Shown piece by piece: positions 7,797-24,327 of a stretch of 64,000 nucleotides of DNA. This stretch comes from Sporosarcina sp. FSL K6-1522 (GTDB lineage Bacteria > Bacillota > Bacilli > Bacillales_A > Planococcaceae), in NCBI RefSeq assembly GCF_038622445.1, contig NZ_CP152019.1, positions 1,772,501 through 1,836,500 of the forward strand. The letters run 5' to 3'. The notes under the pieces are model-generated. The model saw only the letters and a list, made by a program, of their open reading frames with translations, did not search any database and had not been told where the DNA came from. Position numbers and translations under genes: made by a program. Every line of letters begins with the position of its first letter. Positions within the stretch are counted from its first letter, which is position 1.

Positions 7797-8660
7797 ATGA
7801 AGAAGTTATTAACGGGTATTTTATTAGCGGTACTTGTACTTGCACTAGCTGCATGCGGTACAAAAGATGAAGGTAAAAAAGACAGTCAGACAAGCGGCGA
7901 TGGCAAGGGAGATACAGGCAGTGAAGTAACGGAATTGAAGATTGGTGCTTCAAATACACCACATGCAATCATTCTTGAAAAAGTAAAACCATTGTTGAAA
8001 GAAAAAGGCGTAGAACTTAAAATTGAAAAATACCAGGATTATATATTGCCGAACCAAGACCTTGAGTCTGGAGAAATCGATGCGAACTATTTCCAACACA
8101 TTCCTTATCTTGAAACACAAATGGCAGATCATGGCTACAAATTTGTCAATGCAGGCGAAATCCATATAGAGCCAATTGGTATCTATTCAAAAGAATATAA
8201 ATCACTTGAAGAGCTTCCAGAGGGTGCACTGGTCTTGATTAGTAATTCAGTAGCTGATCATGGGCGCGTACTTGGGTTGCTTGAAGCGAAAGGGCTTATC
8301 AAGCTAGCTGAGGGCATTGATAAAACGAAAGCTGAAGTAAAAGATATTGTTGAGAATCCAAAAAATCTACAATTTGATGCGAAAAATGATCCGGCAATTT
8401 TGCCACAGTTTTTCAATCAAGGTGAAGGTGATATAGTTCTCATTAACACGAACTTCGCAATCGATGCAGGTTTAAACCCACTTGAAGATGCAATCGAAAT
8501 GGAAGATTCGGCGGAATCACCGTACTTGAATATCATCGCTGTACGTGAAGGCGATGAAAATAACGCTGAAATTAAAGCGTTGGTTGAAGTATTGAAATCA
8601 CAAGAAATCCAAGATTATATCCTTGAAGAATGGAATGGCGAAATCGTGCCAGTTAAATAA
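7797..8660 (+). CDS. metQ: methionine-binding lipoprotein
   Basis: A 287-residue NlpA-family substrate-binding lipoprotein. The signal peptide ends in the lipobox LAAC with lipidated Cys20, followed by a charged Ser/Gly/Lys linker to about residue 43 and then the mature binding fold (SNTPHAIILEKVKPLL and NYFQHIPYLE are family hallmarks). It captures methionine, possibly the D isomer or sulfoxide too, outside the membrane and hands it to MetP. It is the last gene of the S-box-controlled operon. Confidence 0.95.
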   Translation: MKKLLTGILLAVLVLALAACGTKDEGKKDSQTSGDGKGDTGSEVTELKIGASNTPHAIILEKVKPLLKEKGVELKIEKYQDYILPNQDLESGEIDANYFQHIPYLETQMADHGYKFVNAGEIHIEPIGIYSKEYKSLEELPEGALVLISNSVADHGRVLGLLEAKGLIKLAEGIDKTKAEVKDIVENPKNLQFDAKNDPAILPQFFNQGEGDIVLINTNFAIDAGLNPLEDAIEMEDSAESPYLNIIAVREGDENNAEIKALVEVLKSQEIQDYILEEWNGEIVPVK

Positions 8661-9225
8661 ATGGAGTGGAAGCCTCATCGATCATTAATGGTCGATGGGC
8701 TTCTTTTTTTGTGGAGAGGAATTTGTAGGCGCGCAATGACTTTGTTGAACCGCGCAAAGCCGCCGTCGGAGCGCGCAATGTCGTTGGCGAACCGCGCAAA
8801 GTAGCCGTCGAAGCGCGCAATGTCGTTGGCGAACCGCGCAAAGTAGCCGTCGAAGCGCGCAATGTCGTTGGCGAACCGCGCAAAGTAGCCGTCGAAGCGC
8901 GCAATGTCGTTGGCGAACCGCGCAAAGTAGCCGTCGAAGCGCGCAATGTCGTTGGCGAACCGCGCAAAGTAGCCGTCGAAGCGCGCAATGTCGTTGGCGA
9001 ACCGCGCAAAGTAGCCGTCGGAGCGCGCAATGTCGTTGGCGAACCGCGCAAAGTAGCTGTCGAAGCACGCAATGTCGTTGGCGAACCGCGCAAAGTAGCC
9101 GTCGAAGCGCGCAATGTCGTTGGCGAAGCGCGCAAAATAGCCGTCGAAGCGCGCAAAGTAGCTGTCGAAGCACGCAAAGTTTCCATCAAACCGCGCATAT
9201 CATATCGTTTTCCCTCCATGGACAT
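8653..9225 (-). CDS. possible repetitive peptide encoded by the 21-nt array (doubtful gene)
   Basis: On the minus strand a 190-codon frame starts at ATG 9225, after a good ggaggga ribosome site 5 nt away, with the leader MSMEGKRYDMRGLMET. It continues as heptads that alternate LRASTAT and LRGSPTT. The frame then runs through the metQ terminator and ends within the metQ 3' end, giving an unlikely tail. A second minus-strand frame across the array is also open, as expected for any repeat of period 3n. A well-placed ribosome site argues for translation; everything else is compatible with a non-coding repeat. I know of no function for it. Confidence 0.25.
   Translation of the reverse strand: MSMEGKRYDMRGLMETLRASTATLRASTAILRASPTTLRASTATLRGSPTTLRASTATLRGSPTTLRAPTATLRGSPTTLRASTATLRGSPTTLRASTATLRGSPTTLRASTATLRGSPTTLRASTATLRGSPTTLRASTATLRGSPTTLRAPTAALRGSTKSLRAYKFLSTKKEAHRPLMIDEASTPFI
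8669..8710 (+). terminator. intrinsic terminator of metNPQ
   Basis: Arms gaagcc...catcga and tcgatg...ggcttc form a long stem followed by a run of T from 8702. Confidence 0.9.
8737..9177. repeat. tandem array of about 21 units of 21 nt, arranged as 42-nt pairs
   Basis: Two 21-nt units alternate (gaaccgcgcaaagtagccgt+c and gaagcgcgcaatgtcgttgg+c), so the higher-order period is 42 nt. The central copies are nearly identical; the outer units are degenerate. The unit is 26/42 G+C, visibly richer than the surrounding DNA. Because the period is divisible by 3, several frames stay open. It starts just past the metQ terminator and fills most of the gap before the symporter gene. Confidence 0.95.
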
Positions 9226-9396
9226 AGTCCCTCCTAGCGAAGGAACGATTTTATATTTTAATAACATAATATTTAATGAATTACGTCTATTACAAATGTG
9301 CGCGCAGAGTGGAAAAAGGGGTTCACATCGCTAAAATGTTGTGGTATTGTATTATTAACTTATAAAAACAAATGTTCATTTGAGGAGGACATATAC

Positions 9397-10786: not shown

Positions 10787-10872
10787 GATTGGATATGTAC
10801 GGTAGTCATTCTTTATTAGGGGATGCGTTTAAATTTGTGAGACTGAAAATTCTGTTTTGGGAGGTCTTTACA

Positions 10873-12927
10873 TTGGAAAACGATGTTAGCATGATTGTTG
10901 GTGTAGATAAAGCGAATCCTACAAAGGAAAAGGATTGCGTCAAGACACGCTGGTCACAAAAAATCAATCGCTTTTATGTACTTTGTATCTATGACCAAGC
11001 TGGGAAACTCGACGACCACATGTACAAAAATAAAATTTGGGGAAAACATGCACATGAAGTGCCAACGACGATTTCGGTGTTTAGTGAACCGGGTAATTCT
11101 AGCACGTTTATTATTTGGGATACGACTTACCAACAAAGTGAGGCATTATTTTCCAAGCTACGCTTAGAGGCGAGGAATGAACTAATCCTGAGGATTGCAA
11201 CGAATTTGGTTGCGTATTTGATAAAAGAATATGAAACGAATGTGAAAACAGCTACTACCGATCATCCTGACTTAAAAGACCCGCATTTTATCGAGCAATT
11301 AATACAAAAATTTGATGCATTTTTGAAGACAAATACATTTTTAATGAATCATGCAGTTTGGGAAGAGTTTTGTCATTGGTTTGAAACGCATTTAACAGAG
11401 TGGATTTTAGAAGATATGGAAGAAGTGGTTGGTTATGAGCAGATGGAAAAATTGTCCGAGAACGAACTAAATGATTTGTTTTTCACATATCTGACAGAAA
11501 ACTCTTCTCGCAATCCAGAATTTCTTTCGAGATTTACGAAAATTGTGAATGTCTATACGCAAGATTGGATTAATCGTCTTATTTCATCGATGAATACAAC
11601 TTTTTTCTCTCCAGAAAAAATCAGAGAACTGCTAGGTATTCCAGACGAAGCGTCAGCAGTTACGAAGAAAGACATTACATTTACGTTAATCGATCAGGGG
11701 AACGTGCTTGTGATGAGCAACGCGCCTTATCAGTCAGTAAGAGAAGTGTTATCTAAAAAAAGTTTTCAAAGAGAAGAAGCGATTCCATGGCCGACAGCTC
11801 GGATTCACAAAGGCAGTATCGAAGGGATTGTCCAAATGAAACCAAATGGCGTGACGAAGCAGAAGGCAACGAATGATGTGCTCATTCAAGAGGCATGGGC
11901 ACAAGCCAAAGCATTGTCAGAAGTAGTCGTAGATGTCTATGACGGGCTGTGTAGTTTTTTCTTGTCAACAGCCCGGTATCATAAAGATACGGTTGAGATT
12001 TACGTAGATGATTTATTAGCGATTCGCGGGTTAAAGCCGAAACTTGGTGGAAGTGGTCGAAGAGGAGGCTATGAAACGAATCAACGTGAACAAATTTTGA
12101 AAGCGCTATCAATTATACAGGATTTATGGATTGATTTAGATAAGGCGATGATTTATGAGAAGGGGAGGCCTGTGCAACTTCAGCTTCAAGGGCGTGCCTT
12201 TATCTTTAAGGATCACAAAAATCGGGAGATATGCATTGATGAGCAGCTGTTAGAGAGAAAATTGCTGTTTACTGTTGACGAGGTGTTTGCGAAATACTTG
12301 TATGGTTCAGGGAGGCAAGTGGCACTCTTGCCGATTCAAGCTTTGCACTATAATCCTTATCGAGAAGCATGGGAAAAGAAACTCACTCGTTATTTTAGTT
12401 GGAGATGGCGAACACAAGCGAGGAGAGGCGATTATTCGCAACCCCATAAAATTAGCACGCTGCTGGAAGCGACGGGTGAGCAACTAAATGAGCGTACGCC
12501 ATCACGGACTAGGGATCGATTGGAACAAGCATTTGATACATTGCTAAGAGATGGCGTCATCGCTTCTTGGCAGTATGAAAAATGGGATGAATCGATAGCG
12601 AGTAGCAAAGGATGGGCACGCATATGGGAAAATACGATGGTGCTTATTGAACCGCCCGAAGTTATAGCGGAGCAGTATCTGTCAATCGGCAAAAATCGTA
12701 AAGTTCAAAATGAGGCAAATGCTAAAGCCGAGCCATCAGTCGGAAAACTCAATCCAGAGGAGATTACTGAACAACTACGAGATCGACGAAAAAACATGAA
12801 TTTGTCGCTCAGCGAGCTGGCAGAAGAACTCGAAATATCGGCGTCCTATTTAAGTAATATTGAAAGGAAAATTAAAGTCCCTTCACCCAAAATACAAGTA
12901 CGGATGATGAACTGGTTACAGCGATAA
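10873..12927 (+). CDS. large protein with C-terminal XRE-type helix-turn-helix, function unknown
   Basis: A protein of 684 residues if it starts at TTG 10873, which follows gggagg; an in-frame ATG 28 codons upstream lacks a ribosome site. The last ~55 residues (EQLRDRRKNMNLSLSELAEE, then ISASYLSNIERK) are a clear XRE/Cro-like helix-turn-helix. The preceding ~200 residues (for example LLPIQALHYNPYREAW, RTRDRLEQAFDTLLRDGVIA) look like tandem winged helices of the kind seen in replication initiators; that likeness is my impression. A Gly/Arg patch KPKLGGSGRRGGY lies near residue 400. There are no membrane segments or recognisable catalytic motifs. The gene stands alone, with possible operators upstream and a MITE-like repeat directly after it. 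It could be a regulator, a phage/plasmid Rep remnant or a defence protein. Confidence 0.75.
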   Translation: MENDVSMIVGVDKANPTKEKDCVKTRWSQKINRFYVLCIYDQAGKLDDHMYKNKIWGKHAHEVPTTISVFSEPGNSSTFIIWDTTYQQSEALFSKLRLEARNELILRIATNLVAYLIKEYETNVKTATTDHPDLKDPHFIEQLIQKFDAFLKTNTFLMNHAVWEEFCHWFETHLTEWILEDMEEVVGYEQMEKLSENELNDLFFTYLTENSSRNPEFLSRFTKIVNVYTQDWINRLISSMNTTFFSPEKIRELLGIPDEASAVTKKDITFTLIDQGNVLVMSNAPYQSVREVLSKKSFQREEAIPWPTARIHKGSIEGIVQMKPNGVTKQKATNDVLIQEAWAQAKALSEVVVDVYDGLCSFFLSTARYHKDTVEIYVDDLLAIRGLKPKLGGSGRRGGYETNQREQILKALSIIQDLWIDLDKAMIYEKGRPVQLQLQGRAFIFKDHKNREICIDEQLLERKLLFTVDEVFAKYLYGSGRQVALLPIQALHYNPYREAWEKKLTRYFSWRWRTQARRGDYSQPHKISTLLEATGEQLNERTPSRTRDRLEQAFDTLLRDGVIASWQYEKWDESIASSKGWARIWENTMVLIEPPEVIAEQYLSIGKNRKVQNEANAKAEPSVGKLNPEEITEQLRDRRKNMNLSLSELAEELEISASYLSNIERKIKVPSPKIQVRMMNWLQR

Positions 12928-12939
12928 GTGAGTAGCTAG

Positions 12940-13000
12940 ATTATGTTGAACTAAAGAATCCAATCAGCTGAAGAGTGTGAAAATCATAAGTTCAATTTAC
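12940..13000. repeat. short copy of the MITE-like TATAAATTGAAC repeat
   Basis: The segment from ttatgttgaactaaagaa to gaaaatcataagttcaattt is the reverse complement of the two ends of the element at 42867-43035, with most of the middle deleted. It follows the XRE gene stop codon by 13 bp. Confidence 0.65.
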
Positions 13001-13119
13001 AGTTCTGTTAATTAGCCAAGAAATAACTAAATTATACACTAGGTACCCACTCTGTATACAGTTGAATTCAAATCGCTTTGGATTGAATTACTGCTATACC
13101 GTTATCGAAGTATTTCTAT

Positions 13120-13161
13120 GTGTAGGGATGCGACTTTGTCTCATCCCTACACATTTTTTTT
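13120..13161 (+). terminator. strong intrinsic terminator
   Basis: Eleven-base perfect arms gtgtagggatg (13120-13130) and catccctacac (13142-13152) are followed by eight T. It may serve the XRE gene 190 bp upstream or an unseen small RNA. Confidence 0.85.
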
Positions 13162-13725
13162 GATAATCGTATGGCGGTTATTCATCCGTCGCGCTTCAAA
13201 ATCTCAAGTAGATAAAGTGAAAATGCTTTTGGGGAAGAAAGAATGGCTGACTCTTTACGTAGAGTGGCGGCCAAAGATACAATTTTGGCCGCTAAAGTCT
13301 TTGTAATGGTCTTTTCTATTATTATTATTATTATTATTGAGGAAAGTATTCGCTACTCTACTGGACTTTCTATATGAAGAATCCTAAGCCTTGCTACAAG
13401 TAAAGAGGGAACGCATTGTTCAATGGACAAGAGTGCCCGAAATTGTATCTTCGGGCACTACACTCCTTAAAGAAAGTCCTCTATTCTTATCTTCACAAGC
13501 AACCGCATTTTTTACTTAACGATTGGAGGGGCGCGACAGGTACTGATTCGCAACAGCATACTTGCCCTTCGAGCAGGAGGAATTGATTCCCCTCTTAAAG
13601 CTGTCGTGAATCATGTGCCGAAAGCGGATCGGAAATTGTTCAGTGAAGGTGGAAAGCATTTCGCATCGTTTTTATGTAAATCAATTTATATATTAAGAAA
13701 AAGAATCGTACATGTTCCCCGCTTT

Positions 13726-13755
13726 ACCTCACGCTATTCTGCATGAGGTTTTTTT
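13726..13755 (+). terminator. terminator-like hairpin
   Basis: Arms acctcacgc and gcatgaggt with one mismatch are followed by a T run. No gene is recognised directly upstream. Confidence 0.65.
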
Positions 13756-13906
13756 GTTGGAAAATCGGACGCTTATCTAAGGCGTTTGTCGTGGCTATCG
13801 TGTACAAATGTCGGGTTGTCATTGAATGCAAAATATTTAGTTAATTGAAAAGTCCATTGGTAGGCGGGCGTTTGATAGGTGTTTCTTTTAATTTTACACA
13901 CTAACA

Positions 13907-13922
13907 ATTAAATTAATTTAAT
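13907..13922. promoter_or_regulatory. AT-rich palindrome before the acyl-CoA cluster
   Basis: A perfect 16-bp palindrome attaaattaatttaat lies about 90 bp upstream of the first gene of the cluster. It could be an operator, but palindromes in such AT-rich DNA arise easily by chance. Confidence 0.25.
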
Positions 13923-14013
13923 AAAAGAATAATTCTGATTAATAAAAGAGGGTGATATATGATAGCTACTAAGATACAGCATTGAAATTTGCAAGAAAGT
14001 GGAGGGATGAAAG

Positions 14014-16191
14014 GTGACTGTTCAACAAGAAAATTATGTAGCACTTGAACCATTATTTAATCCTAAATCTGTAGCAATCTTAGGAGCTTCCGAAAACAAA
14101 AATAAGCTGGGTTATTTACAAGTAAAAGCTCTATTGGACGGCGGATTTGCAGGGGATATTTATCCGATCAATCCACGGTCTGAAAAAATTGAAGGACTGC
14201 TCTGTTATCCTTCGCTTGCTGAAGTGAAAACAACCATTGACTTAGCGATTTTTTGTTTGAGTGCAGATCGAGTGAAGCAAGGTTTGCTAGAATGTGCGGA
14301 AAACGGCATTAAAGCAGCTGTCGTATTTGCTTCTGGTTTTTCCGAAACCGGGGAGGAAGGGTTGAAAGAACAACAACTGATTAGCGACCTTGCGAAAGAG
14401 CATGGCATTCGAATCATTGGACCGAATTGTGTGGGCTTAGTGAATACGACGAATGGGTTAGTTGCGACGTTTTCGCCAGGTCTGACGAATGTTCCGCTAA
14501 ACGATAAAAGAGAAGTTGGATTTGTCACGCAGAGCGGTGCTTTCGGCGTGTTGACCTATATTGCAGCGGCGCAAAAAGGGCTCAGTTTTAACTACTTCGT
14601 CAGTGTAGGAAACGAAATGGAAACGGAGTTTTCCGATGTTGTGGAATACATGGTGCATGATCCGAAAACCAAAGTTATTAGCGGCTATTTAGAAGGGGCG
14701 AAAAATCCTCAGAAATTGCGACAATTGGCAAAAGAGGCACTTGCTAAAAATAAGCCCATGGTCATTATGAAAACGGGTCGTAGTGCAGCAGGAAGCAGAG
14801 CAGCGGCTTCGCACACGGGTTCATTAGCAGGGTCCGATCAAATCTATGATGCATTTTTTAAACAAACAGGTATTGTCAGGGCCAATGATTTTGAAGATAT
14901 TATTGCTTTCAGCAAACTGTTCCAAACGGGCAAAATACCAAAGGGAAGGAATACGGTTATCGTCACGAGTTCAGGTGGTCGAGGCATCAACGAGGCAGAT
15001 CGCTGTGAATCGTATGGATTGAACATTCATCCGTTAAGTTTCACGGTGAAGAAGGCCATTGAAAAAAACATCCCTTCTTTTGCAAGCGCTTCCAACCCTG
15101 TTGACTTAACAGCAGCGGCGGCCGTTACAAATCCAGAGTTATTTTTGGAGCCGTTACGTGTACTTGTAGACGACCCAGATACAGATATTATTATCTTCTC
15201 GGAATTCCCGATGCACTGGACGTATGATGAGCCGCTCATTAAGGAATTCATTGACATCTGTAAGAACACGGACAAATTCATTCTCATTACAACGTTCCAG
15301 TTAGAGGGGATGTCCATTCCAAAATCGACGCCTGAATTAGTCGCCAATGGTATACCGGTTATCACGGGAGATTTGAATCCAATTCGGGCACTTGCCAAAT
15401 TTGTTGAATATGGAGAACGATACGAACAGCAAAAACAGAAAAACGATGTAGGGATTCAGCCGCAGCAAGCGAAAAAAGATATTACACCGCTTGTCCAGTA
15501 TAAGACGACATTGAGTGAGGCGGAAGCTAGCGAAGTGTTGGCGTTGTACGACATTCCGACTACACAACGAATGGTTGCAACGACAGCGCAGGAAGCCGTT
15601 CAGCATGCCAATAGTATGGGCTATCCAGTCGCTTTAAAAATTGACTCGCCTGATATTCCGCATAAAACAGAGGCCAATGCGATTAAACTCAATGTGAAAA
15701 ATGACCAGGAAGTTATGGATGCCTTTGATGAGATTGACCGCAATGCGCGGGCATATGATGCGAATGCCGTCATTAATGGTGTTTCTATACAAGAAATGTT
15801 ACCGGCAGGCGTTGAAGTGATTGTTGGGGTAACCAATGATCCAGGTTTCGGACCGGTGATTATGTTTGGGTTAGGCGGCATCTTTGTGGAAGTTTTCCGA
15901 GATATCTCGTTTAGAGTTGCACCGTTAACGAGAGATGATGCACTGGAGATGATTGAGGAGATTAAGGGCTACGCCATTTTGAAGGGGGCTCGCGGGAAAG
16001 CGGCGGTCGATATTGAAGCGATTGTCGATGTACTGCTAAAAGTGTCAGCCCTCGTTACGGATCATGGGGATCACATTGACGAATTGGATATCAATCCACT
16101 GATTGTTTATGAAGATGGGATTAAAGCTGCAGATGCCATGCTCGTGGTTCGCGAGACAGAAGTTCAAGCATCTGTGGGAGTAGGGGGATGA
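14014..16191 (+). CDS. ADP-forming acyl-CoA synthetase (acetate-CoA ligase family), single-chain
   Basis: A 725-residue protein with a GTG start, 7 nt after ggaggg. Domain order: CoA-binding Rossmann domain (about 10-140, starting VAILGASENKNKLGY), succinyl-CoA-ligase-like domains (about 145-460, with GPNCVGLVNT, VTQSGAFG and ASHTGSLAGSD; the last carries the His expected to be phosphorylated), and a C-terminal ATP-grasp domain (about 490-715, with GYPVALKIDSPDIPHKTEAN). The family couples ATP to formation of an acyl-CoA and ADP, or runs in reverse. As first gene of the cluster it probably activates the entering acid or the acid released after aldol cleavage and aldehyde oxidation; the substrate is unknown. 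It is 4 bp from the next gene. Confidence 0.88.
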   Translation: MTVQQENYVALEPLFNPKSVAILGASENKNKLGYLQVKALLDGGFAGDIYPINPRSEKIEGLLCYPSLAEVKTTIDLAIFCLSADRVKQGLLECAENGIKAAVVFASGFSETGEEGLKEQQLISDLAKEHGIRIIGPNCVGLVNTTNGLVATFSPGLTNVPLNDKREVGFVTQSGAFGVLTYIAAAQKGLSFNYFVSVGNEMETEFSDVVEYMVHDPKTKVISGYLEGAKNPQKLRQLAKEALAKNKPMVIMKTGRSAAGSRAAASHTGSLAGSDQIYDAFFKQTGIVRANDFEDIIAFSKLFQTGKIPKGRNTVIVTSSGGRGINEADRCESYGLNIHPLSFTVKKAIEKNIPSFASASNPVDLTAAAAVTNPELFLEPLRVLVDDPDTDIIIFSEFPMHWTYDEPLIKEFIDICKNTDKFILITTFQLEGMSIPKSTPELVANGIPVITGDLNPIRALAKFVEYGERYEQQKQKNDVGIQPQQAKKDITPLVQYKTTLSEAEASEVLALYDIPTTQRMVATTAQEAVQHANSMGYPVALKIDSPDIPHKTEANAIKLNVKNDQEVMDAFDEIDRNARAYDANAVINGVSIQEMLPAGVEVIVGVTNDPGFGPVIMFGLGGIFVEVFRDISFRVAPLTRDDALEMIEEIKGYAILKGARGKAAVDIEAIVDVLLKVSALVTDHGDHIDELDINPLIVYEDGIKAADAMLVVRETEVQASVGVGG

Positions 16192-16195
16192 CGAT

Positions 16196-16651
16196 ATGGA
16201 CTTAGACAAAAGTATGATTGGCTTAACCGGAGAGGTTTATGTCTTTGAGACGGAAAAAAGGCATATCCGACAATTTGCGGAGGCGATTGGAGATGCTAAC
16301 CCACTTTATGTTGACGAAGCACACGCCGCGAATACGCCGTATGGCAAACTGATTGCCCCACCAACGTTTCCAATTGCAATCGGAGCGGAGGGGGGCGGTA
16401 TCCCAATTGAACTTGATGCCCGCCGCATGTTGCACGGGGAACAGGAGTTTATTTATCACCGTGCAATTAGTCCGGGAGATCGTTTGTATTGTCAGATGAA
16501 AGTAGCGGATATCTATGAACGTGAAGGCAAAAGCGGGGTTATGCAGTTTTTAGTCTTGGATACGTACATGAAAGATGAACATGGTGAAATGGTGGCAGTT
16601 AGTCGAACGAATATCATTTATCGACCGTTGTCGAAAAAGGAGGGCCAGTGA
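16196..16651 (+). CDS. MaoC-like hot-dog hydratase subunit without the catalytic His (FAS1-type N-terminal dehydratase family)
   Basis: A 151-residue single hot-dog protein of the MaoC dehydratase N-terminal/FAS1-like family. At the place where active R-hydratases have GDxNPxH, it reads IGDANPLYVD with Tyr38 instead of His, so it is probably not catalytic alone. In heteromeric MaoC hydratases, including the steroid-degrading type, one subunit supports substrate binding while the partner carries the Asp-His pair. The partner is the next gene, whose ATG directly abuts this stop codon. Together they should hydrate a 2-enoyl-CoA to a 3-hydroxyacyl-CoA in the cytoplasm. Confidence 0.82.
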   Translation: MDLDKSMIGLTGEVYVFETEKRHIRQFAEAIGDANPLYVDEAHAANTPYGKLIAPPTFPIAIGAEGGGIPIELDARRMLHGEQEFIYHRAISPGDRLYCQMKVADIYEREGKSGVMQFLVLDTYMKDEHGEMVAVSRTNIIYRPLSKKEGQ

Positions 16652-17074
16652 ATGGGGTTAGCGTATGAGGAGTTGACGGAAGGCCAACAGCTAGAATCGT
16701 TGGTCAAAGAACCTGTGACGAAAGTGCAGCTCGTGAAATATGCAGGAGCATCAGGTGATTTGAACCCACTGCATACGGACGATGCCTTTGCCCAAAGTAT
16801 TGGTATGGATGGCGTTATTGCACATGGCATGTTGGTGATGGGGTTCCTTGGTGAGTATGTTATGGAGCTTGCAGGAACGACTGCTGTTCCTGCAAAGTTT
16901 GGCATGCGTTTCGGAGCGATGACGAAACCAGGCGATCAAATTACATGTTCAGCAACAGTGGAGAAAATGTATGAGGAAGCTGAAGGACGCTATGTCAGTT
17001 TAGCGCTAACAGCGGAAAAACAACCTGGTGAGGTCGTTGGTTCTGGTAGTGCTACATTGCGTTTTCACGAATAG
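16652..17074 (+). CDS. MaoC-like (R)-enoyl-CoA hydratase, catalytic subunit
   Basis: A 140-residue single hot-dog protein with the complete hydratase-2 motif AGASGDLNPLHTD: Asp36 and His41 are the expected catalytic pair. IAHGMLVMGFLGEY is also typical. The start codon touches the stop of the preceding subunit and is read from an aaggaggg ribosome site inside that gene, so the two are made in step. It adds water to a 2-enoyl-CoA and so follows the acyl-CoA dehydrogenase pair encoded downstream. A 22-bp gap separates it from the thiolase-like gene. Confidence 0.87.
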   Translation: MGLAYEELTEGQQLESLVKEPVTKVQLVKYAGASGDLNPLHTDDAFAQSIGMDGVIAHGMLVMGFLGEYVMELAGTTAVPAKFGMRFGAMTKPGDQITCSATVEKMYEEAEGRYVSLALTAEKQPGEVVGSGSATLRFHE

Positions 17075-17096
17075 TAAAGAGATGGGGGTATGAAAA

Positions 17097-18260
17097 ATGG
17101 GGAAAATAACAGATCGCTATGCCATTGTCGGTGTAGGTGAAAGCGAACGCTCGAAAAATTCAGGGAAAAGCCCGTTACATATGGCGTTGGATGCAGCGCG
17201 TGCTGCGCTCAATGATGCTGGTTTACAAGCGACGGACATCGATGGTTTTATGAGCTATAACGAAAATGATTCCTGTACGTCACATCAGTTAGCGACGTAT
17301 TTAGGGGTGCGGCCGAAATATGTGAAAGACATTATGGGCGGTGGCAGTAGTACAGAAATGCTGATTAGCGATGCGGTAGCGCTAATTGAAGCGGGAGAGC
17401 TAAATTCAGTACTGATTTTTCGCTCCATGAATGGACGCTCGGGCGTTCGAATGGGCGGTGGCGGTTGGGATGTCAATATGCTGCAAACGGCAATTGATGG
17501 AGGGAGCTTTATCATTCCGTACGGAGCTGGAGGGCCTGCGCAATGGTTTGGCATGTTTGCGACGCGGCATATGCACGAAACGGGTATTACGCAAGAGCAT
17601 CTAGGACATGTTTGTACAAGTTTTTATGAGCATGCGCAGCGCAATCCAAAAGCATTTTTCCACGGTAAGCCGTTGACGATAGAAGAATATAAAGCGACAC
17701 CTTATTTAAGCTATCCGTTCAATAAACATGATTTTTGCTTGGAATCGGACGAGGCGAATGCCATTATTGTGACTTCTGCGGAACGAGCGAAGGATTGCAA
17801 ATCTAGACCGGTGTATATTATGGGACTGTCGTCCAGACAATGCCATCCACATACGCATTATTGGTCCGATTTATCGCAAGTAGCGTCGGATTACGTCGCA
17901 CCTGAAGTATACAAAAGTGCTGGGGTTAAGCCGGAAGATATTCAAGTAGCTTCGATCTACGATTGTTATAGCTGGGTCGTTCTACGCCAATTAGAAGCAT
18001 TTGGTTTTGCACCACGTGGTGAAGTGGGGAACTTTGTAGCGGAAGGCAACTTGCGCATGGGCGGTAAACTACCGACGAATACAGCGGGCGGCATGTTATC
18101 AGAAGGCTATACGCATGGGATGAATAATGTCCTTGAAATTGTACGTCAGTTGCGCCATGAGTATCGGGAGTCAGATCGTCAAGTGAAAGATTGTGAAGTA
18201 GGGATTTGCACAGGCTGGGCGGGGCCAGATATTGCAGGCGCTATGATTTTAAGAAACTAG
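17097..18260 (+). CDS. thiolase-superfamily protein lacking the nucleophilic Cys; probable Ltp2-like acyl-CoA aldolase
   Basis: A 387-residue protein of the SCP2-type thiolase/lipid-transfer group. Aligned by eye with FadA in this window, the nucleophilic Cys of NRFCSSG falls on Gly83 of IMGGGSST, so ordinary Claisen thiolysis is not expected. The GHP His motif is replaced by SEGYTHGMN with Tyr338. In the steroid aldolase Ltp2, a thiolase-fold enzyme that works in complex with a DUF35 protein, the catalytic Cys is absent and active-site tyrosines are used for retro-aldol cleavage; the sequence here fits that pattern. The next gene encodes exactly such a DUF35 protein. Predicted reaction (inference): 3-hydroxyacyl-CoA to aldehyde or ketone plus a shorter acyl-CoA. 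A generic lipid-transfer thiolase of unknown activity is the alternative. Confidence 0.8.
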   Translation: MGKITDRYAIVGVGESERSKNSGKSPLHMALDAARAALNDAGLQATDIDGFMSYNENDSCTSHQLATYLGVRPKYVKDIMGGGSSTEMLISDAVALIEAGELNSVLIFRSMNGRSGVRMGGGGWDVNMLQTAIDGGSFIIPYGAGGPAQWFGMFATRHMHETGITQEHLGHVCTSFYEHAQRNPKAFFHGKPLTIEEYKATPYLSYPFNKHDFCLESDEANAIIVTSAERAKDCKSRPVYIMGLSSRQCHPHTHYWSDLSQVASDYVAPEVYKSAGVKPEDIQVASIYDCYSWVVLRQLEAFGFAPRGEVGNFVAEGNLRMGGKLPTNTAGGMLSEGYTHGMNNVLEIVRQLRHEYRESDRQVKDCEVGICTGWAGPDIAGAMILRN

Positions 18261-18271
18261 GAGGGATGACG

Positions 18272-18709
18272 ATGAAAGAGACGACAATGACCTATTTAAA
18301 ACCCATTCCGGTGAAAACCCCGGATAATAGTCCTTATTGGGACGCAGCAGATCGACATGAGCTAGTGCTTCAAAAATGTGAGAGTTGCAAAGAATACTTG
18401 CATCCACCAGGACCAAGTTGTGCGAAATGCGGTAGCCCAGCCGTTAGTTGGGAAGAAATCGGGAACGATATTCAAGGCACAATCTATTCGTATGTGATCT
18501 CTCATCGACCGTTTTTACCAGGTTTTCAAGACGATTTACCACTCATTATTGCGCAAGTTGAGCTGGATAAAGTGCCAGAAGTGAAGATTATGGCCAATGT
18601 GCTAGATTGTGATTATGAAAAAATTCAGATTGGTATGCCCGTGAAAATGATTTGGCAGGATTTGCCGGAAGGCCGTTCGTTACCACAATGGAAACCGATT
18701 GACGCGTAA
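18272..18709 (+). CDS. Zn-ribbon OB-fold protein (DUF35/ChsH2-like), partner of the thiolase-like protein
   Basis: A 145-residue protein with an N-terminal rubredoxin-like Zn ribbon (Cys36, Cys39, Cys50, Cys53) followed by an OB fold containing GTIYSYVISHRPFLPGF. I chose the ATG at 18272, 7 nt after aggaggg; the upstream in-frame ATG at 18266 is too close to that site. DUF35 proteins associate with thiolase-fold enzymes: they channel acyl-CoA between thiolase and HMG-CoA synthase in archaea and are needed for Ltp2 aldolase activity in actinobacteria. In steroid pathways this domain is often fused to a MaoC subunit (ChsH2); here it is separate. Confidence 0.86.
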   Translation: MKETTMTYLKPIPVKTPDNSPYWDAADRHELVLQKCESCKEYLHPPGPSCAKCGSPAVSWEEIGNDIQGTIYSYVISHRPFLPGFQDDLPLIIAQVELDKVPEVKIMANVLDCDYEKIQIGMPVKMIWQDLPEGRSLPQWKPIDA

Positions 18710-18730
18710 AAATAAAGGGGGATGGGAGCT

Positions 18731-19924
18731 ATGGATTTTTCATTCACGAAAAAAGAAGAGCAGTTTCGCCAAGAACTGCGAACGTGGCTGGAGGAAAACT
18801 TGCCAGAGGGCTGGCTAGCAGGAAATAGAGAGCTACCTGAGGATGAAGAAGAATATTCGGCGTTCCTAAGAAATTGGCAAAAGACGTTGCATGAGGGCGG
18901 CTGGGCGGCGATTGCTTGGCCTAAGAAATACGGGGGACGCGATGCAACGCTGATGGAGGAAATCATTTACCAACAAGAGATGGTGCGCGTAAAGGCACCG
19001 CCACTTGTGAACTATGTTGGGATTCATATGGTTGCGCCGACGCTGATGCAAATTGGTACAGAAGAACAGAAGGAAGAATATATTAACAAAATTCTCATTG
19101 GAGAAGAGGTCTGGTGCCAAGGGTATTCGGAGCCGAATGCAGGTTCAGATTTAGCGGCGATTCAAACGAGCGCAGTAAAAGAGGGCGATAAATGGATCAT
19201 TAATGGCCAAAAGGTTTGGACGAGTTTCGGGCATTTAGCGGATCGCTGTTTCTTATTGACACGTACGAGCCATAAGGAGAAAAAGCATCAGGGGATTACG
19301 GTATTTCTATTAGATATGAAACAACCAGGAGTTGAAACGCTGCCAATCGTTCAAATGGACGGGAAAAAGGAATTTAATGAAGTGTATTTAAATGATGCAG
19401 TAGCCTATGATGCGGACATTGTCGGTGAGGTCGATGAAGGTTGGAAGGTTACGATGGCCTTGCTGATGCACGAACGGACGGGGATTGGCGCCCAAGTATT
19501 TACATTGGAGCAACAGTTTGAAGACCTTGTGAAGTTGACAAAAGAATTGCATGTCAATGATCAGCCGCTCATTAAAGACCCATTTGTTCGTCAGAAAATG
19601 GTTGATTTTTATACACGATTCCGTGGCTCTTTATTAAACTATTATCGTCATTTAACGAAAACACTAAAAGATGGGCATCCAGGTGCGGAAGGTTCCATGG
19701 ATAAACTAATGGTCAGTGAGCTGACGAAAGAGCTATTCGACTATGCAGTATCGGTTCAAGGACACCAAGGGGTTTTGTGGAAAAAAGATGCCTTAGTGGA
19801 CTCTTACTGGCAAGATAACTTTTTGCAATCATTCGGGATGACCATTGGTGGCGGAACAAGTGAGATTTTGAGAAATACCATTGCTGAAAGAATACTAGGA
19901 TTACCAAAAGATCTAGGCCGTTAA
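18731..19924 (+). CDS. acyl-CoA dehydrogenase, FadE29/ChsE2-like subunit
   Basis: A 397-residue acyl-CoA dehydrogenase. The start is the ATG at 18731 after aaaggggg; an ATG three codons upstream overlaps the ribosome site. Visible features are the N-terminal helical domain with EEQFRQELRTWLEENLP, the beta-domain motifs QGYSEPNAGSDLA and WIINGQKVWTS, and the C-terminal GGGTSEILRNTIAERILG. The neighbour at 19947 is a second, clearly different dehydrogenase. In steroid side-chain catabolism such pairs form alpha2-beta2 enzymes, and this one resembles the subunit with the GGGTSEI end. It would introduce the 2,3 double bond of an acyl-CoA, passing electrons to an electron-transfer flavoprotein that is not in this window. 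Confidence 0.87.
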   Translation: MDFSFTKKEEQFRQELRTWLEENLPEGWLAGNRELPEDEEEYSAFLRNWQKTLHEGGWAAIAWPKKYGGRDATLMEEIIYQQEMVRVKAPPLVNYVGIHMVAPTLMQIGTEEQKEEYINKILIGEEVWCQGYSEPNAGSDLAAIQTSAVKEGDKWIINGQKVWTSFGHLADRCFLLTRTSHKEKKHQGITVFLLDMKQPGVETLPIVQMDGKKEFNEVYLNDAVAYDADIVGEVDEGWKVTMALLMHERTGIGAQVFTLEQQFEDLVKLTKELHVNDQPLIKDPFVRQKMVDFYTRFRGSLLNYYRHLTKTLKDGHPGAEGSMDKLMVSELTKELFDYAVSVQGHQGVLWKKDALVDSYWQDNFLQSFGMTIGGGTSEILRNTIAERILGLPKDLGR

Positions 19925-19946
19925 TCATATCGGAGGTGCTGACAAC

Positions 19947-21065
19947 ATGGACTTTGCATTGAGTGAAGAGCAAGAAATGTTTCGTGGGTATGTGCGTAAA
20001 TATTTGGATGGCGCGGGGCAAACAAAGATTGCACGCGAGTTTGCTAAAGGTAATACAGACGGTTTTCAAGCAATTTGGACTGGGTTGGCTGACCTTGGCT
20101 GCACAGGAATTACGATTCCAGAAGCGAATGGTGGACTCGGACTCGGGGCGTTAGATTTGGTACCAGTGCTGGAGGAAATGGGGCAAGTCCTTTTACCGGG
20201 ATCATATTTAGAAACGGTTGCCTTTGCAGTCCCGCTACTCGAAAAGTATGGGACAGAGGCACAAAAAGAAAAATATTTAACGGAAATTGCAGCCGGTTCT
20301 CGAAGTATGACACTTGCTTGGTTAGAGCCGCAAAAGGGATATAATCCGGAAGAAATTAGCTGTTCTGCACGTGTGGAAGGAGATTCACTAGTCGTCGATG
20401 GAGTGAAGGTGCTCGTGCCAGGCGGGGAGCAAGCTGATAGTTATGTCGTATTAGTACGTACAGATGAAGGGCTTTCGTTAGTGATTATGGATCGGACGAA
20501 CGATATTGAAGTGAATGCGCAAAGGTGTATCGACGAAACCTTAGGCTTATCTGAACTGACGTTTCGACAAGTTCACATTCTACAAAGTCAAATTCTTGGA
20601 CCCGTCAATCAGGGCTGGTCTGTGCTACAGGAAGGCTTGCTGTCCTTGAACGCAGCTTTAACTTCTGTCATTGTCGGCGGCATGGAGAAGGTCATCGACA
20701 TGTCCGTAGAATATGTGAAAATTCGTGAGCAGTTTGGCCAGCCGATTGGACGTTTTCAAGCGCTTAAACACCGGATTGCAGATATGAAGATGGAATTAGA
20801 GACGACTCGTTCATTAAGTCATTACGCGAATTGGGCACTTGAAAGTGGTGAGGCAGATTGTGAAGCAGCGATTTATAGCGCTCGAACTTTTGCGACAGAA
20901 GCCTATATTAATGTAGCCTCTCATAATATCCAAAATCATGGGGGCATTGGATTTACAGAAGAAATTGACTGTCACTTATTTTTGAAGCGTGCGCGCTTCT
21001 ATGAAAGTTACCTCGGTTCATCCCAGCATTATAAAGAACAAGCAGCATTAGCATTAGCATGGTGA
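19947..21065 (+). CDS. acyl-CoA dehydrogenase, FadE28/ChsE1-like subunit
   Basis: A 372-residue acyl-CoA dehydrogenase-fold protein, shorter and more divergent than its neighbour. The motif normally YAxTEPxxGSD is reduced to MTLAWLEPQKGYNPEE, so the usual flavin-contacting Ser/Thr loop is missing. The C-terminal NHGGIGFTEEIDCHLFLKRA matches the FadE28-like subunit of heteromeric dehydrogenases. It follows the other dehydrogenase by 22 bp with ggaggtg in the gap. It probably contributes half of a shared active site and may be inactive by itself (inference from the actinobacterial pairs). Confidence 0.84.
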   Translation: MDFALSEEQEMFRGYVRKYLDGAGQTKIAREFAKGNTDGFQAIWTGLADLGCTGITIPEANGGLGLGALDLVPVLEEMGQVLLPGSYLETVAFAVPLLEKYGTEAQKEKYLTEIAAGSRSMTLAWLEPQKGYNPEEISCSARVEGDSLVVDGVKVLVPGGEQADSYVVLVRTDEGLSLVIMDRTNDIEVNAQRCIDETLGLSELTFRQVHILQSQILGPVNQGWSVLQEGLLSLNAALTSVIVGGMEKVIDMSVEYVKIREQFGQPIGRFQALKHRIADMKMELETTRSLSHYANWALESGEADCEAAIYSARTFATEAYINVASHNIQNHGGIGFTEEIDCHLFLKRARFYESYLGSSQHYKEQAALALAW

Positions 21066-21066
21066 A

Positions 21067-22584
21067 GTGAGCAAGCGGAATGTGAAGACAATTGAAAGGG
21101 TGAATGTGACGTTGACAACAGCAAACAAATTAAAAGAGTATCAGAACGTTGTGAATGGCGAATTAGTACCTGCTTCTTCAGGAGAGACTGTTGATAGTTT
21201 GGATCCTGCAACAGGAGAGGCTTGGGCAAAAGTTCCTCGGAGTTCGTTGAAGGATGTCGATACGATTGTAGCGTCGGCCCGACAAGCATTTCCAGCTTGG
21301 GCAGCACTTTCTGCGCTTGAACGGGCGGACTATATGCGGCAGATTGGTGATTTAATAGCTGAGCATGCTGAGGAAATAGCAGAGTTAGAGGCAAGGGATA
21401 TTGGGTGGGTCATTCGAGAGACGACTTATGGGCTTATTCCAGTGTTAAAACAAATCTGGTACGATGCTGCTGGCGCTACAGCTGTAGCGAGCCGTGGTGA
21501 AACAGTTCAGATGGGTCCTACGAGTCTTGGCTACACATTGCGCGAGCCTTTGGGTGTTGTATTGGGTATTCTTCCTTGGAATTCACCTTTATTTACTTTC
21601 ACGATGAAAGCGGCTTACGCACTGGCAGCGGGGAATACGGTTGTGATTAAACCTTCGGAGTCTGCGGCAGTTTCATCCTTACGCTATGGCGAGTTGTTGG
21701 CAAAAGTCTTACCGCCAGGCGTACTCAATGTTATCTGCGGTAAAGGAAGTGAAGTGGGTGACGCATTAGTAAGCCATCGTGATATTAACAAAGTGACGTT
21801 AACGGGATCAGGAACGACTGCACAAGCGATTGCCAAGGCTACAGCACAACATCCAAAACCACTCACTTTGGAATTGGGCGGTAAATCTCCGAATATTGTT
21901 TTCGCGGATGCCAATTTAGAAAAAGCGGTCGATGGCATTACGACTAATGGTATTTTTACAGGGAATGCAGGACAACTCTGTGTGGGTGGATCGAGGATTT
22001 TGATTCAAAGACCGATTTTCGATAAGATGCTAACGTTAATGAAAGAACATATCGAGAAAAGCATCCAATTAGGTGATCCAATGAGTCCGGAAAGTACAAT
22101 GGGACCGATTGTCAACTTGTCACAATACAAACAGATTTGTTCGTATATTGATATTGGATTGGAAGAAGGCGAAGTAGTCTTCGGCGGACGTCATGGAGGG
22201 GCTGAACTTTTACCAGGAAAGCCGCAGTTTGAGGGCGGTTATTGGGTAGAACCGACATTGTTTAGAGTAGAGAGCAACGCACATCGTATTTGCCAAGAAG
22301 AAATTTTTGGCCCAGTTGCGGTCGTGATGCCTTTTGATACGGAGGAAGAAGCGATTGCCTTGGCCAATGATACGGCATTTGGTTTAGGAGCTGGCGTTTG
22401 GACATCGAATTTGGATTGTGCGCAGCGGATGATTCGGAATTTAGATTCAGGGAACGTTTGGGTCAATACGTACCGTCGGGTAGGTGTGGAATTACCTTTT
22501 GGCGGGGTGAAAGATAGCGGTTATGGTACGGATTCCATTTTAGAAAACACGCGCGAAAAAGCTTGTGTCATTGAGATGGGATGA
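21067..22584 (+). CDS. NAD(P)-dependent aldehyde dehydrogenase
   Basis: A 505-residue aldehyde dehydrogenase with Cys305 (GQLCVGG) as nucleophile, Glu269 in LELGGKSPN as base, and PWNSPLF/ITGSG-like NAD contacts (VLTGSG is LTGSGTTAQ here). The longest frame starts with GTG at 21067, 1 nt after the previous stop, but without a good ribosome site. In-frame GTG 21106 or TTG 21112 follow aaaggg and are reasonable alternatives, shortening the protein by 13-15 residues. In this cluster it would oxidise the aldehyde left by aldol cleavage to an acid, which the ligase at 14014 could re-activate (inference). Confidence 0.88.
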   Translation: MSKRNVKTIERVNVTLTTANKLKEYQNVVNGELVPASSGETVDSLDPATGEAWAKVPRSSLKDVDTIVASARQAFPAWAALSALERADYMRQIGDLIAEHAEEIAELEARDIGWVIRETTYGLIPVLKQIWYDAAGATAVASRGETVQMGPTSLGYTLREPLGVVLGILPWNSPLFTFTMKAAYALAAGNTVVIKPSESAAVSSLRYGELLAKVLPPGVLNVICGKGSEVGDALVSHRDINKVTLTGSGTTAQAIAKATAQHPKPLTLELGGKSPNIVFADANLEKAVDGITTNGIFTGNAGQLCVGGSRILIQRPIFDKMLTLMKEHIEKSIQLGDPMSPESTMGPIVNLSQYKQICSYIDIGLEEGEVVFGGRHGGAELLPGKPQFEGGYWVEPTLFRVESNAHRICQEEIFGPVAVVMPFDTEEEAIALANDTAFGLGAGVWTSNLDCAQRMIRNLDSGNVWVNTYRRVGVELPFGGVKDSGYGTDSILENTREKACVIEMG

Positions 22585-22593
22585 TAATTGGGA

Positions 22594-22619
22594 GGGCATC
22601 TTATAGGTGCCCTTTTTTT
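22594..22619 (+). terminator. intrinsic terminator after the aldehyde dehydrogenase gene
   Basis: Arms gggcatc (22594-22600) and ggtgccc (22606-22612, one G-U pair) are followed by seven T. The transporter gene downstream therefore depends on read-through or its own promoter. Confidence 0.85.
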
Positions 22620-22641
22620 CATCACAAAGGAGGCGTTATGA

Positions 22642-24084
22642 TTGGATGATAAAGCAGTGAAAAGAGCCTTTCATTTTTTATGTCTTGGGACCTTGCTGAT
22701 TGTTTTTTGTGAGGCAACGCATATCCCGGCGTACCCAAAGATGCTTGAACATTTTCAGTTGGGAGCGGGATATGCGGTCTATATGCAACTAGGTTTTGCA
22801 TTAGGGTTAACGGGCTTTCAACCGTTGATGGGTTGGATGGGCGATTCCTTTGGCCAAAAAAGAGTCATCGTTTTCGGTGCGATACTAATGGCGATTGGGT
22901 CGTTTTTAGTTGCATTATCACCGGCTTTTTGGATAATGGTTGTCGGTCTCTTTTTTAAAGGGATGGCAGGGGCTGCTGTCGTGCCGGCGGGAGTTGCTTT
23001 TGCAGGCAGATACTTTCAAGGCGATAAAATTGGCAAGGCGTTAGGGTTATTCGGATTTTATTCGGTCTTGGGCGCTTTGGCCGCACCGTTATTAAGTGGG
23101 ATCTTTGTTGACAGTATGGGATGGTCCTCGATTTTTTGGCTATGTGCGCTGTTAGGTTTGCTTGCATCTCTGTTATTTGTCATTGGTGTGCCGTTTGTTC
23201 AAGGGGAGAAAGCAGCTTCATTTGATTTCTTCGGTGCAATTATCGTTTTTGGCATCTTGGGAAGTCTGTTGACGGTTCCAACCTTTATTAATGAATATGG
23301 TTTTGAATCGATGAAGTGGCTTCCGTCAGCTGTTATTTTTGTAATTGCTTTCATTTTGTTGATTGTTGTGGAAAAGAAACAGAAGGCACCTTTAATTGAC
23401 ATTGAGTATGCTATGACGAGGAGTTTTTGGGTTCCTTCATTAATTGCGGTTTTTATGTTCATCACATTTAGTAGTGTGATGTTTGTATTAACGTTCTTTA
23501 TTCAAAACGTGCAAGAGAAATCTTCTACAACCGTTGGGCTATTACTTATGCCGCTTTACTTAGTAATGGGCGTTGCGAACTTATGGAGCGGCCGATTGAT
23601 GGATAAACTTACTGCTCGGACCATCATGTCAGCGAGTGTTGCGTTCATGGTCGGTGGAGCAGGGATGTTGATTTTCACAAATAAAGAAACTTCTGTTGCT
23701 TATCTACTTGTATCGATGATGCTAATTGGCTTGGGGATTGGGATGATTGGACCGGTTATTCGGGCTGTAGTCGTATCTAAAGCGGATCAAGCTCGTATTG
23801 GCGTTGTGACGTTTACTTATTTGACGATTGAAAATCTGGCTTCACGTGTAGGCGCTTCGTTTGCTATCGTCATGTTTGCATTATTTGCGGCGGGAGGAAG
23901 TGCAGTGAGTGCATTGTCCAATGTTGCTGTGGTTTTGACTGTTTTGTCAGCAATTGCTTTCTTGTTTATCTTCCTAGTTCCTAAAAGAGTAAGAGGAATT
24001 AAAGGTGTAGGGCAAGATGATATCGAGGTAGAAGCGAAAACAATGAGAGTCACTACCACAAAGGTGGATACGATAAATTCTTAA
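22642..24084 (+). CDS. MFS transporter
   Basis: A 480-residue major facilitator protein with roughly 12-14 hydrophobic helices. The MFS loop-2/3 signature appears as GWMGDSFGQKRVIVFG near residues 70-85. The start is TTG at 22642, 9 nt after aaaggagg; the ATG just upstream opens a 3-codon frame only. It belongs broadly with drug:H+ antiporter-type MFS proteins, but its place at the end of the acyl-CoA cluster suggests uptake or efflux of the cluster's substrate or an intermediate. The direction of transport cannot be read from sequence. Confidence 0.83.
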   Translation: MDDKAVKRAFHFLCLGTLLIVFCEATHIPAYPKMLEHFQLGAGYAVYMQLGFALGLTGFQPLMGWMGDSFGQKRVIVFGAILMAIGSFLVALSPAFWIMVVGLFFKGMAGAAVVPAGVAFAGRYFQGDKIGKALGLFGFYSVLGALAAPLLSGIFVDSMGWSSIFWLCALLGLLASLLFVIGVPFVQGEKAASFDFFGAIIVFGILGSLLTVPTFINEYGFESMKWLPSAVIFVIAFILLIVVEKKQKAPLIDIEYAMTRSFWVPSLIAVFMFITFSSVMFVLTFFIQNVQEKSSTTVGLLLMPLYLVMGVANLWSGRLMDKLTARTIMSASVAFMVGGAGMLIFTNKETSVAYLLVSMMLIGLGIGMIGPVIRAVVVSKADQARIGVVTFTYLTIENLASRVGASFAIVMFALFAAGGSAVSALSNVAVVLTVLSAIAFLFIFLVPKRVRGIKGVGQDDIEVEAKTMRVTTTKVDTINS

Positions 24085-24093
24085 AAGTTAGCG

Positions 24094-24123
24094 AAAGCCA
24101 GCACATGGGATGCTGGCTTTTCT
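24094..24123 (+). terminator. intrinsic terminator after the MFS gene
   Basis: Ten-base perfect arms aaagccagca (24094-24103) and tgctggcttt (24111-24120), with T continuing. It closes the acyl-CoA cluster. Confidence 0.88.
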
Positions 24124-24327
24124 GATGATTATAATTCTCAATCAAGAAGAGATAATTGAAAATATCGTAAAACAATTGGGAAGGATGCTTATAAGACTAG
24201 CAAGCAGGGCATTCTGTTTAAATGACATGATTCTCGATGATTTGCATGGCAGTGCTTTATGCGTTAAGATTAGAATGATACTAATTAGAGAATGGATATC
24301 CGTTCATCATATATTGGAGGTATTGGA

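Follow-up and report, generated by a model that had tools for sequence, protein, structure and literature searches.

Relation to characterised aldolytic systems

In the literature covered, the aldolytic beta-oxidation characterised so far acts on side chains of steroids and comes from Actinomycetota and Pseudomonadota. The igr genes of Mycobacterium (ChsE1-ChsE2, ChsH1-ChsH2 and Ltp2) and Comamonas ORF40-44 (PMC12502768) share one enzyme logic, in which a heteromeric acyl-coenzyme A (CoA) dehydrogenase and a heteromeric MaoC hydratase are combined with a thiolase-fold aldolase and its DUF35 partner; in the Sal-Shy-Sad system of Proteobacteria that degrade bile acids, the aldolase carries a YDC motif with the Cys as proposed acid, and an aldehyde dehydrogenase follows (PMC12329534, PMC11321319, PMC8399759). 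Here we analyse an operon of the same logic from Sporosarcina sp. FSL K6-1522, lying in a window of 64,000 nucleotides (contig positions 1772501-1836500 of a 4.39-Mb single-contig genome), to which all coordinates below refer unless stated. It encodes an ADP-forming acyl-CoA ligase, two MaoC subunits (MaoCa and MaoCb), the thiolase-fold protein LTP, a DUF35 protein, two acyl-CoA dehydrogenases (ACAD1 and ACAD2), an aldehyde dehydrogenase and a major facilitator superfamily (MFS) transporter (Table 1). We propose, with a probability of about four in five, that this operon carries out one round of aldolytic beta-oxidation on a bulky, branched or long carboxylic acid, under the probable control of a linked regulator, Xup, and its 22-bp iteron-like repeats.

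The operon differs from igr and ORF40-44 in its separate DUF35 gene, in a Tyr-Asp-Cys motif where those aldolases have YDHF, in hydratases nearer HadAB, in its ADP-forming ligase and aldehyde dehydrogenase, and in its setting, a Bacillota genome without KshA. From Sal-Shy-Sad it is set apart by a two-subunit hydratase and a separate DUF35 protein instead of the DUF35-MaoC fusion (Shy), and by the position of CtSal on a distant branch. The original prediction for this DNA had placed a co-directional nine-gene cluster at 14014-24084; nine open reading frames (ORFs) do lie there on the same strand, with gaps of 0-22 bp from the ligase through the aldehyde dehydrogenase, and Pfam and NCBIfam searches agree with the families then assigned. 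Its interpretation is supported, with a correction for the hydratases, which are nearer HadA/HadB than ChsH2/ChsH1; LTP is nearest to Ltp2, though neither Ltp2 nor Sal proper. It also had the operon begin at the ligase, missing Xup and the 22-bp sites; the inherited unit begins farther upstream, at about 10.8 kb, with the linked regulator gene. The gene-neighbourhood survey that it had proposed finds the order MaoCa-MaoCb-LTP-DUF35-ACAD1-ACAD2 around LTP in 34 family genomes and, by genome scan, the six-gene core in 45 Bacillales loci, so that the gene set is not a chance assembly. If the reading is correct, aldolytic beta-oxidation extends to at least 45 Bacillales genomes.

We propose the reactions, their direction, the product type and the regulation as follows. 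The ligase would convert the acid to its acyl-CoA, an obligate ACAD1-ACAD2 heteromer would form the enoyl-CoA and pass electrons to electron transfer flavoprotein (ETF), and the HadA/HadB-like pair would hydrate the enoyl-CoA to a 3-hydroxyacyl-CoA. LTP with DUF35 would then break a C-C bond by retro-aldol cleavage, giving acetyl-CoA or propionyl-CoA and an aldehyde, which the aldehyde dehydrogenase would oxidise to the shorter acid. In the cleavage step Tyr288 of LTP may act as the base taking the hydroxyl proton, and Cys290 and/or Tyr338 may protonate the enolate. Xup, an initiator-like XRE protein, would bind the 22-bp iterons that precede the ligase gene and control expression. Judged from individual residues of the proteins, the proposed mechanism has good support.

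Active sites of the predicted enzymes

Among PDB entries LTP scores highest against TcLtp2 (6ok1_A, 253 bits), followed by CtSal (140) and the SCP2 thiolases (about 75). Its Cys residues stand only at positions 60, 173, 214, 234, 249, 290, 366 and 371, and the nucleophile loop (residues 78-90, GGGSST) contains none; the canonical FadA encoded in the window has Cys90 in a CSSG motif. The absence of a nucleophilic Cys from this thiolase-fold protein, as first noted from the letters, is thus confirmed (no Cys between 60 and 173, with FadA as control), and its lack at the N-terminal position rules out identity as an active thiolase. LTP does not group with active thiolases, and the aldolytic reading gains support.

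In TcLtp2, Tyr294 of the YDHF motif is the base and Tyr344 the acid, with His296 in the oxyanion hole; CtSal relies on Tyr302 and Cys304, the Tyr and Cys of its YDCY motif, which were both shown to be essential, and has Gln352 where TcLtp2 has Tyr344 (PMC12329534). In LTP, Tyr288, Cys290 and Tyr338 are invariant in all 47 relatives (motif YDC[YF], position 291 being Tyr or Phe), and Tyr338 aligns with TcLtp2 Tyr344, so LTP holds both proposed acids, the Cys of Sal and the second Tyr of Ltp2. It thus has YDC[YF] in place of the YDHF of Ltp2 and keeps the second Tyr; its Tyr-Asp-Cys-Tyr matches Sal, from which it differs by Gln347 to Met333 and Gln352 to Tyr338. Such an active site bridges Sal and Ltp2 and makes the identity of the catalytic acid directly testable. 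The LTP clade stands apart from both TcLtp2 and CtSal in the tree, where CtSal has a long branch and an unsure placement, and LTP scores 334.6 bits against NCBIfam PRK07855 (lipid-transfer protein), below the cut-off of 469. Metagenome-derived Pseudomonadota, Myxococcota, Acidimicrobiales and Rokubacteria have LTP relatives at 47-58% identity with the same residue combination. The DUF35 protein, a separate polypeptide of 147 aa, finds its best PDB match in the DUF35 domain of ChsH2 (6ok1_B), and its four Cys are kept in 46 of 46 relatives. In the entry enzyme, the phospho-His motif SHTGS is conserved (His in 30/30 relatives of the ligase).

A split of the catalytic Glu and the flavin adenine dinucleotide (FAD) site between subunits is the pattern described for the heterotetrameric ChsE-type acyl-CoA dehydrogenases, and the two ACAD proteins show the same division, Glu in one and the FAD-ADP site in the other. 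ACAD1 matches steroid alpha subunits best in the PDB (Tcur3483 6wy8_B, ChsE4 4x28_A); its Glu251 aligns with ChsE4 Glu247, and both E251 and H250 occur in 45/45 relatives. Prolines in the E-helix of the alpha subunit have been tied to bulky substrates (PMC11153573), and ACAD1 has two, Pro93 (45/45 relatives) and Pro94 (41/45). ACAD2 retains the FAD-ADP motifs in all 46 relatives. Its two known base positions are occupied by N235 and L356, and in the relatives by Asn or another residue and by Leu or other hydrophobics, respectively. With no Glu at either base position of ACAD2 and its FAD motifs kept, ACAD1 and ACAD2 should share one active site, and neither is expected to work alone.

The hydratase subunits are divided in a comparable way. 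MaoCb keeps D36 and H41 in 43/43 relatives; MaoCa has Tyr38 at the catalytic His position in 45 of 46, the same His-to-Tyr change as in ChsH2. The central helix measures 7 residues in the AlphaFold2 (AF2) model of MaoCa (predicted local distance difference test, pLDDT, 90.5), shorter than the 9 of ChsH2 and the 18 of canonical enzymes (PMC11321319); this points to an acyl group that is long or bulky. In sequence and fold both subunits are nearest HadA/HadB (MaoCa against HadA 4rlj_A, Z 17.4) rather than ChsH2/ChsH1. HadAB of mycobacterial fatty acid synthase II likewise joins one catalytic subunit to one without the catalytic His; the operon pair differs by its catabolic acyl-CoA context and by scores far under the NCBIfam HadA and HadB cut-offs (74.6/180 and 78/203 bits). 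Residue complementarity rules out homomeric dehydrogenases or hydratases, and the alternative of unrelated homomers raised at the outset fails for both pairs, which are complementary half-enzymes.

The probable linked regulator Xup and the 22-bp repeats

Of the 45 Bacillales loci, 32 have a homologue of Xup linked to their operon. Pfam, NCBIfam and PHROGs recognise in Xup the C-terminal helix-turn-helix alone (Pfam HTH_3). In the AF2 model (pLDDT 79.7; predicted template modelling score 0.53), residues 275-591 superpose by VIA-align on RctB (5tbf_A, Z 13.0, root-mean-square deviation 3.9, 232 residues), Pi (2nra_C, Z 12.6) and RepE (about 9). The Foldseek E-values of these initiator matches are weak (0.09-0.17), which makes the call of an initiator fold good and not final; the model is thus supportive, though not conclusive, of a tandem winged-helix plasmid-initiator fold for the Xup core.

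The interval that separates Xup from the ligase contains repeats, often in tandem, of consensus TGTCGrGGtTATcntGnACA. We derived this consensus by eye from the loci that also served to train a matrix; these were exclusively loci with Xup upstream, and the matrix was applied leave-one-out. Matches were found in 22 of 24 loci with Xup upstream, in 8 of 9 with Xup downstream (outside the training set) and in none of 13 without Xup, or 30/33 against 0/13 overall; Fisher's exact test for Xup-downstream against no-Xup loci gives p 3e-5, a value that overstates independence, the nine downstream loci being close Sporosarcina relatives. The spacing is exactly 22 bp in 16 of 17 neighbouring pairs, and 47 of 48 matches have the same orientation. 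The 4.39-Mb genome of the window holds one exact consensus match, repeat copy 1 at the operon, with weaker matches at about control level.

We read Xup as probably a transcription regulator derived from a plasmid initiator, with the 22-bp iterons as its candidate sites. Like RctB, Pi (R6K) and RepE, it combines a predicted tandem winged-helix core with 22-bp tandem sites; it differs from them in an extra N-terminal domain, a C-terminal XRE domain, its linkage to a catabolic operon, and sites that stay with the operon promoter and not with its own gene. That Xup and the iterons might instead be the remains of a plasmid origin integrated with the operon seems to us unlikely. The initiator-like fold would suit such an origin, and 22-bp iterons are typical of plasmid origins. 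In addition, 26 plasmid records, most of them of large plasmids from Bacillaceae, carry distant relatives of Xup; one such relative is flanked by a primase gene and ParM/StbA. We favour the regulator because the iterons stay at the front of the operon when Xup is at the other end: nine Sporosarcina loci have Xup in that position, and eight of them still carry the iterons upstream of the first enzyme gene. Also against a remnant, loci without Xup have no iterons and carry a PucR-type GAF regulator beside the operon, which a sigma-54 activator replaces in one locus, and no other plasmid genes travel with Xup. If the regulator reading is true, Xup would exemplify a replication initiator that was converted to transcriptional control and retained its binding sites. 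The full proposition, that an RctB/Pi-type initiator with 22-bp iterons was recruited as the switch of a mobile catabolic operon of Bacillota that acts on non-steroid acids and encodes a third class of retro-aldolase (Tyr-Asp-Cys plus a second Tyr), stands for us at even odds.

The plasmid-borne relatives of Xup are annotated just as helix-turn-helix or hypothetical proteins; they are possible replication initiators that have gone unrecognised, and Xup draws attention to this set of initiator-like genes carried by large plasmids of Bacillaceae.

Product, substrate and alternative chemistries

An aldehyde product is suggested by the presence of an aldehyde dehydrogenase in the operon, by analogy with Sad after Sal (PMC8399759). 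The original prediction of an aldehyde that is then oxidised fits the 32 of 45 Bacillales loci with an aldehyde dehydrogenase orthologue within the operon, and fits less well the remaining quarter or so. Several points weigh against the proposed route. No characterised active site is an exact match for that of the aldolase, which is neither Ltp2 nor Sal proper. About 13 of the 45 Bacillales loci have no aldehyde dehydrogenase in the operon, and in 11 family genomes of this kind no orthologue was found elsewhere (generic relatives of 42-43% or nothing above threshold); in some hosts, then, the product may be a ketone or may be handled by other enzymes. The genome also encodes 3-hydroxyacyl-CoA dehydrogenases, with four strong PF02737 matches, one of them (FadN) just upstream of the window. 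Their local absence, noted at first, was therefore dropped as strong evidence. The objection that such enzymes raise is only weakened by stereochemistry: the (3R)-hydroxyacyl-CoA that HadB/MaoC hydratases yield is not a substrate of FadN-type enzymes.

For the substrate, on which the literature gave no candidate, our best guess is an acid with a branched, cyclic or long chain structure. In the open literature, most subscription papers being outside this coverage, we found no Bacillales pathway like this operon and no regulator like Xup. On our reading, the enzymes are non-steroid candidates for tunable C-C lyases.

A 3-arylpropionic or phenylpropanoid substrate, from which the aldolase would release an aromatic aldehyde and acetyl-CoA and the aldehyde dehydrogenase would make a benzoic acid, is a doubtful candidate. 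Dehydrogenase, hydratase, aldolase and aldehyde dehydrogenase supply the chemistry that it requires, the hosts are soil bacteria, and hydroxycinnamates are substrates of ADP-forming ligases elsewhere among bacteria; yet no aromatic-acid genes were noticed beside the operon in any locus read, the literature gave no link, and the short helix of MaoCa and the Pro-loop of ACAD1 would open a pocket larger than a phenylpropanoid needs.

The window genome contains a second aldolytic cluster about 220 kb away (contig about 1551800-1565200), with an AMP-forming ligase, two dehydrogenases, two MaoC proteins, an LTP with YDAF, a DUF35 protein, three CaiB-type and two crotonase genes. In Neobacillus citreus and Mesobacillus persicus a cluster of this type directly follows the operon, which has no aldehyde dehydrogenase of its own, and the orthologue of that enzyme (70% and 67%, respectively) lies at the far end of the second cluster; both clusters therefore probably feed one route in these two species, and most hosts have only the first. 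These clusters bear on a steroid reading, in which the operon would serve sterol or bile acid side chains and the two clusters would perform successive rounds, like Sal and Ltp2 in Proteobacteria. The enzyme set and the best PDB matches are those of steroid enzymes, and the second-cluster LTP of the window genome passes the PRK07855 cut-off (498 against 469 bits), with second LTP clusters of this type in four of the 45-locus genomes besides. We nevertheless rate this reading as improbable: the second cluster is absent from most genomes that carry the first, the hydratase is nearer HadAB than ChsH1-ChsH2, no steroid-ring genes were noticed in the neighbourhoods read, and KshA_C (PF19298) has no match in the window genome. 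The absence of KshA makes degradation of whole steroids unlikely; catabolism of the whole molecule was dropped as a leading reading on that ground, and growth on steroids is unsupported. Less probable still is a non-aldolytic cleavage by LTP as another Claisen-type enzyme (a decarboxylase or acyltransferase like PhlC, or a benzoylsuccinyl-CoA thiolase), a reading favoured by the pairing of thiolase fold and DUF35 in PhlC and BbsB, detectable relatives of LTP, and opposed by the missing nucleophilic Cys, by the Tyr-Asp-Cys and second Tyr of aldolases invariant in 47 relatives, and by dehydrogenase and hydratase pairs that supply exactly the substrate of an aldolase.

Conservation and acquisition of the operon

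The hosts include Sporosarcina, Neobacillus, Peribacillus, Virgibacillus, Oceanobacillus and Kurthia. ORF calling in the 45 Bacillales loci recovered MaoCa, DUF35 and ACAD2 45 times each, ACAD1 44 times and MaoCb 42 times, some core genes being masked by antisense ORFs picked by the script or lying at contig ends; Lysinibacillus odysseyi has the same core genes in a different order. The periphery is more variable. Most loci encode an ADP-forming ligase and others have AMP-forming ones instead, the MFS orthologue is present in 21 of 45 with other MFS proteins substituting elsewhere, and etfBA adjoins the operon in 9 of 45. In loci without Xup both regulator and entry enzyme are swapped around the fixed core (PucR-type GAF/HTH_30 regulator; AMP-forming ligases). 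In Viridibacillus arvi the ligase is split into two ORFs (303 and 335 aa) and the ACAD1 ORF is shortened, which may reflect decay or sequencing errors.

In 14 of the 15 congeners compared glt directly precedes sufC, and metQ stands there in the remaining one; in the window strain an insertion of Xup, the operon and the MFS gene (10789-24200) separates glt from sufC. In the tree, the LTP of the window belongs to a group made up mainly of Bacillaceae (support 98/88); it is 88% identical to that of Peribacillus butanolivorans and shares 78-79% identity with the LTP of several other Sporosarcina. The insertion and this placement fit acquisition of the operon as one block, Xup included. Plasmid-borne relatives of LTP are distant (40-43%), have other gene orders and gave no clue to the substrate.

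Organisation of the region

The window starts within fadN, of which it contains the end, and continues with fadA and fadE (ordinary beta-oxidation), gcvH and metNPQ; downstream of the operon lie genes that we take to be sufC-sufD-sufS-sufU-sufB. An alternative Xup frame is open from a TTG at 10789. A terminator-like hairpin 3' of Xup suggests that Xup is probably a transcription unit separate from the operon, and the terminator first predicted before the MFS gene is present (Table 1). The second repeat copy starts exactly 22 bp after the first. The AT-rich block CTAACAATTAAAT is a probable promoter region; the promoter scan showed no excess over shuffled sequences. The direct repeat TTAATAAAAGA at 13918 and 13939 was dropped, as it was not recognised by eye in other loci.

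Table 1. Features of the Xup-operon region in window coordinates.
Feature	Position	Strand	Basis or remark
Xup, 678 aa, probable linked regulator	10891..12927	+	predicted tandem winged-helix, initiator-like core about 266-594, C-terminal XRE helix-turn-helix
Terminator-like hairpin after Xup	13118..13160	+	inverted repeat, 17-nt arms then T run
22-bp iteron-like repeat, copy 1, TGTCGTGGCTATCGTGTACAAA	13787..13808	+	leave-one-out matrix score 27.4
22-bp iteron-like repeat, copy 2, degenerate, TGTCGGGTTGTCATTGAATGCA	13809..13830	+	by eye; below matrix threshold
AT-rich block CTAACAATTAAAT, 3' of iterons	13901..13913	+	visual comparison, most upstream regions
ADP-forming acyl-CoA ligase, predicted entry step	14014..16191	+	CoA-binding, Succ_CoA_lig, ATP-grasp_5
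MaoCa, HadA-like non-catalytic hydratase subunit	16196..16651	+	NPLY, His to Tyr
MaoCb, HadB-like catalytic hydratase subunit	16652..17074	+	Asp36/His41 dyad
LTP, predicted thiolase-fold retro-aldolase	17097..18260	+	Tyr288-Asp-Cys290 and Tyr338
DUF35, zinc ribbon and oligonucleotide-binding (OB) fold, putative LTP partner	18266..18709	+	CxxC-CxxC
ACAD1, acyl-CoA dehydrogenase alpha subunit	18722..19924	+	Glu251, Pro-loop; FAD-ADP motif lost
ACAD2, acyl-CoA dehydrogenase beta subunit	19947..21065	+	R260-x-Q-F and QxxGGxG; Glu lost at both positions
NAD-type aldehyde dehydrogenase	21067..22584	+	presumed oxidation of aldehyde product
Terminator hairpin then T run, before MFS gene	22590..22616	+	-15.6 kcal/mol, z -3.5
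MFS transporter, DHA2/EmrB-like	22642..24084	+	may import or export a substrate or product

A tandem repeat between metQ and glt (8653-9267) yields a repeated TLRASTATLRGSPT on the minus strand, and the Viridibacillus arvi locus has a short repeat array before the ligase that is similar to it.

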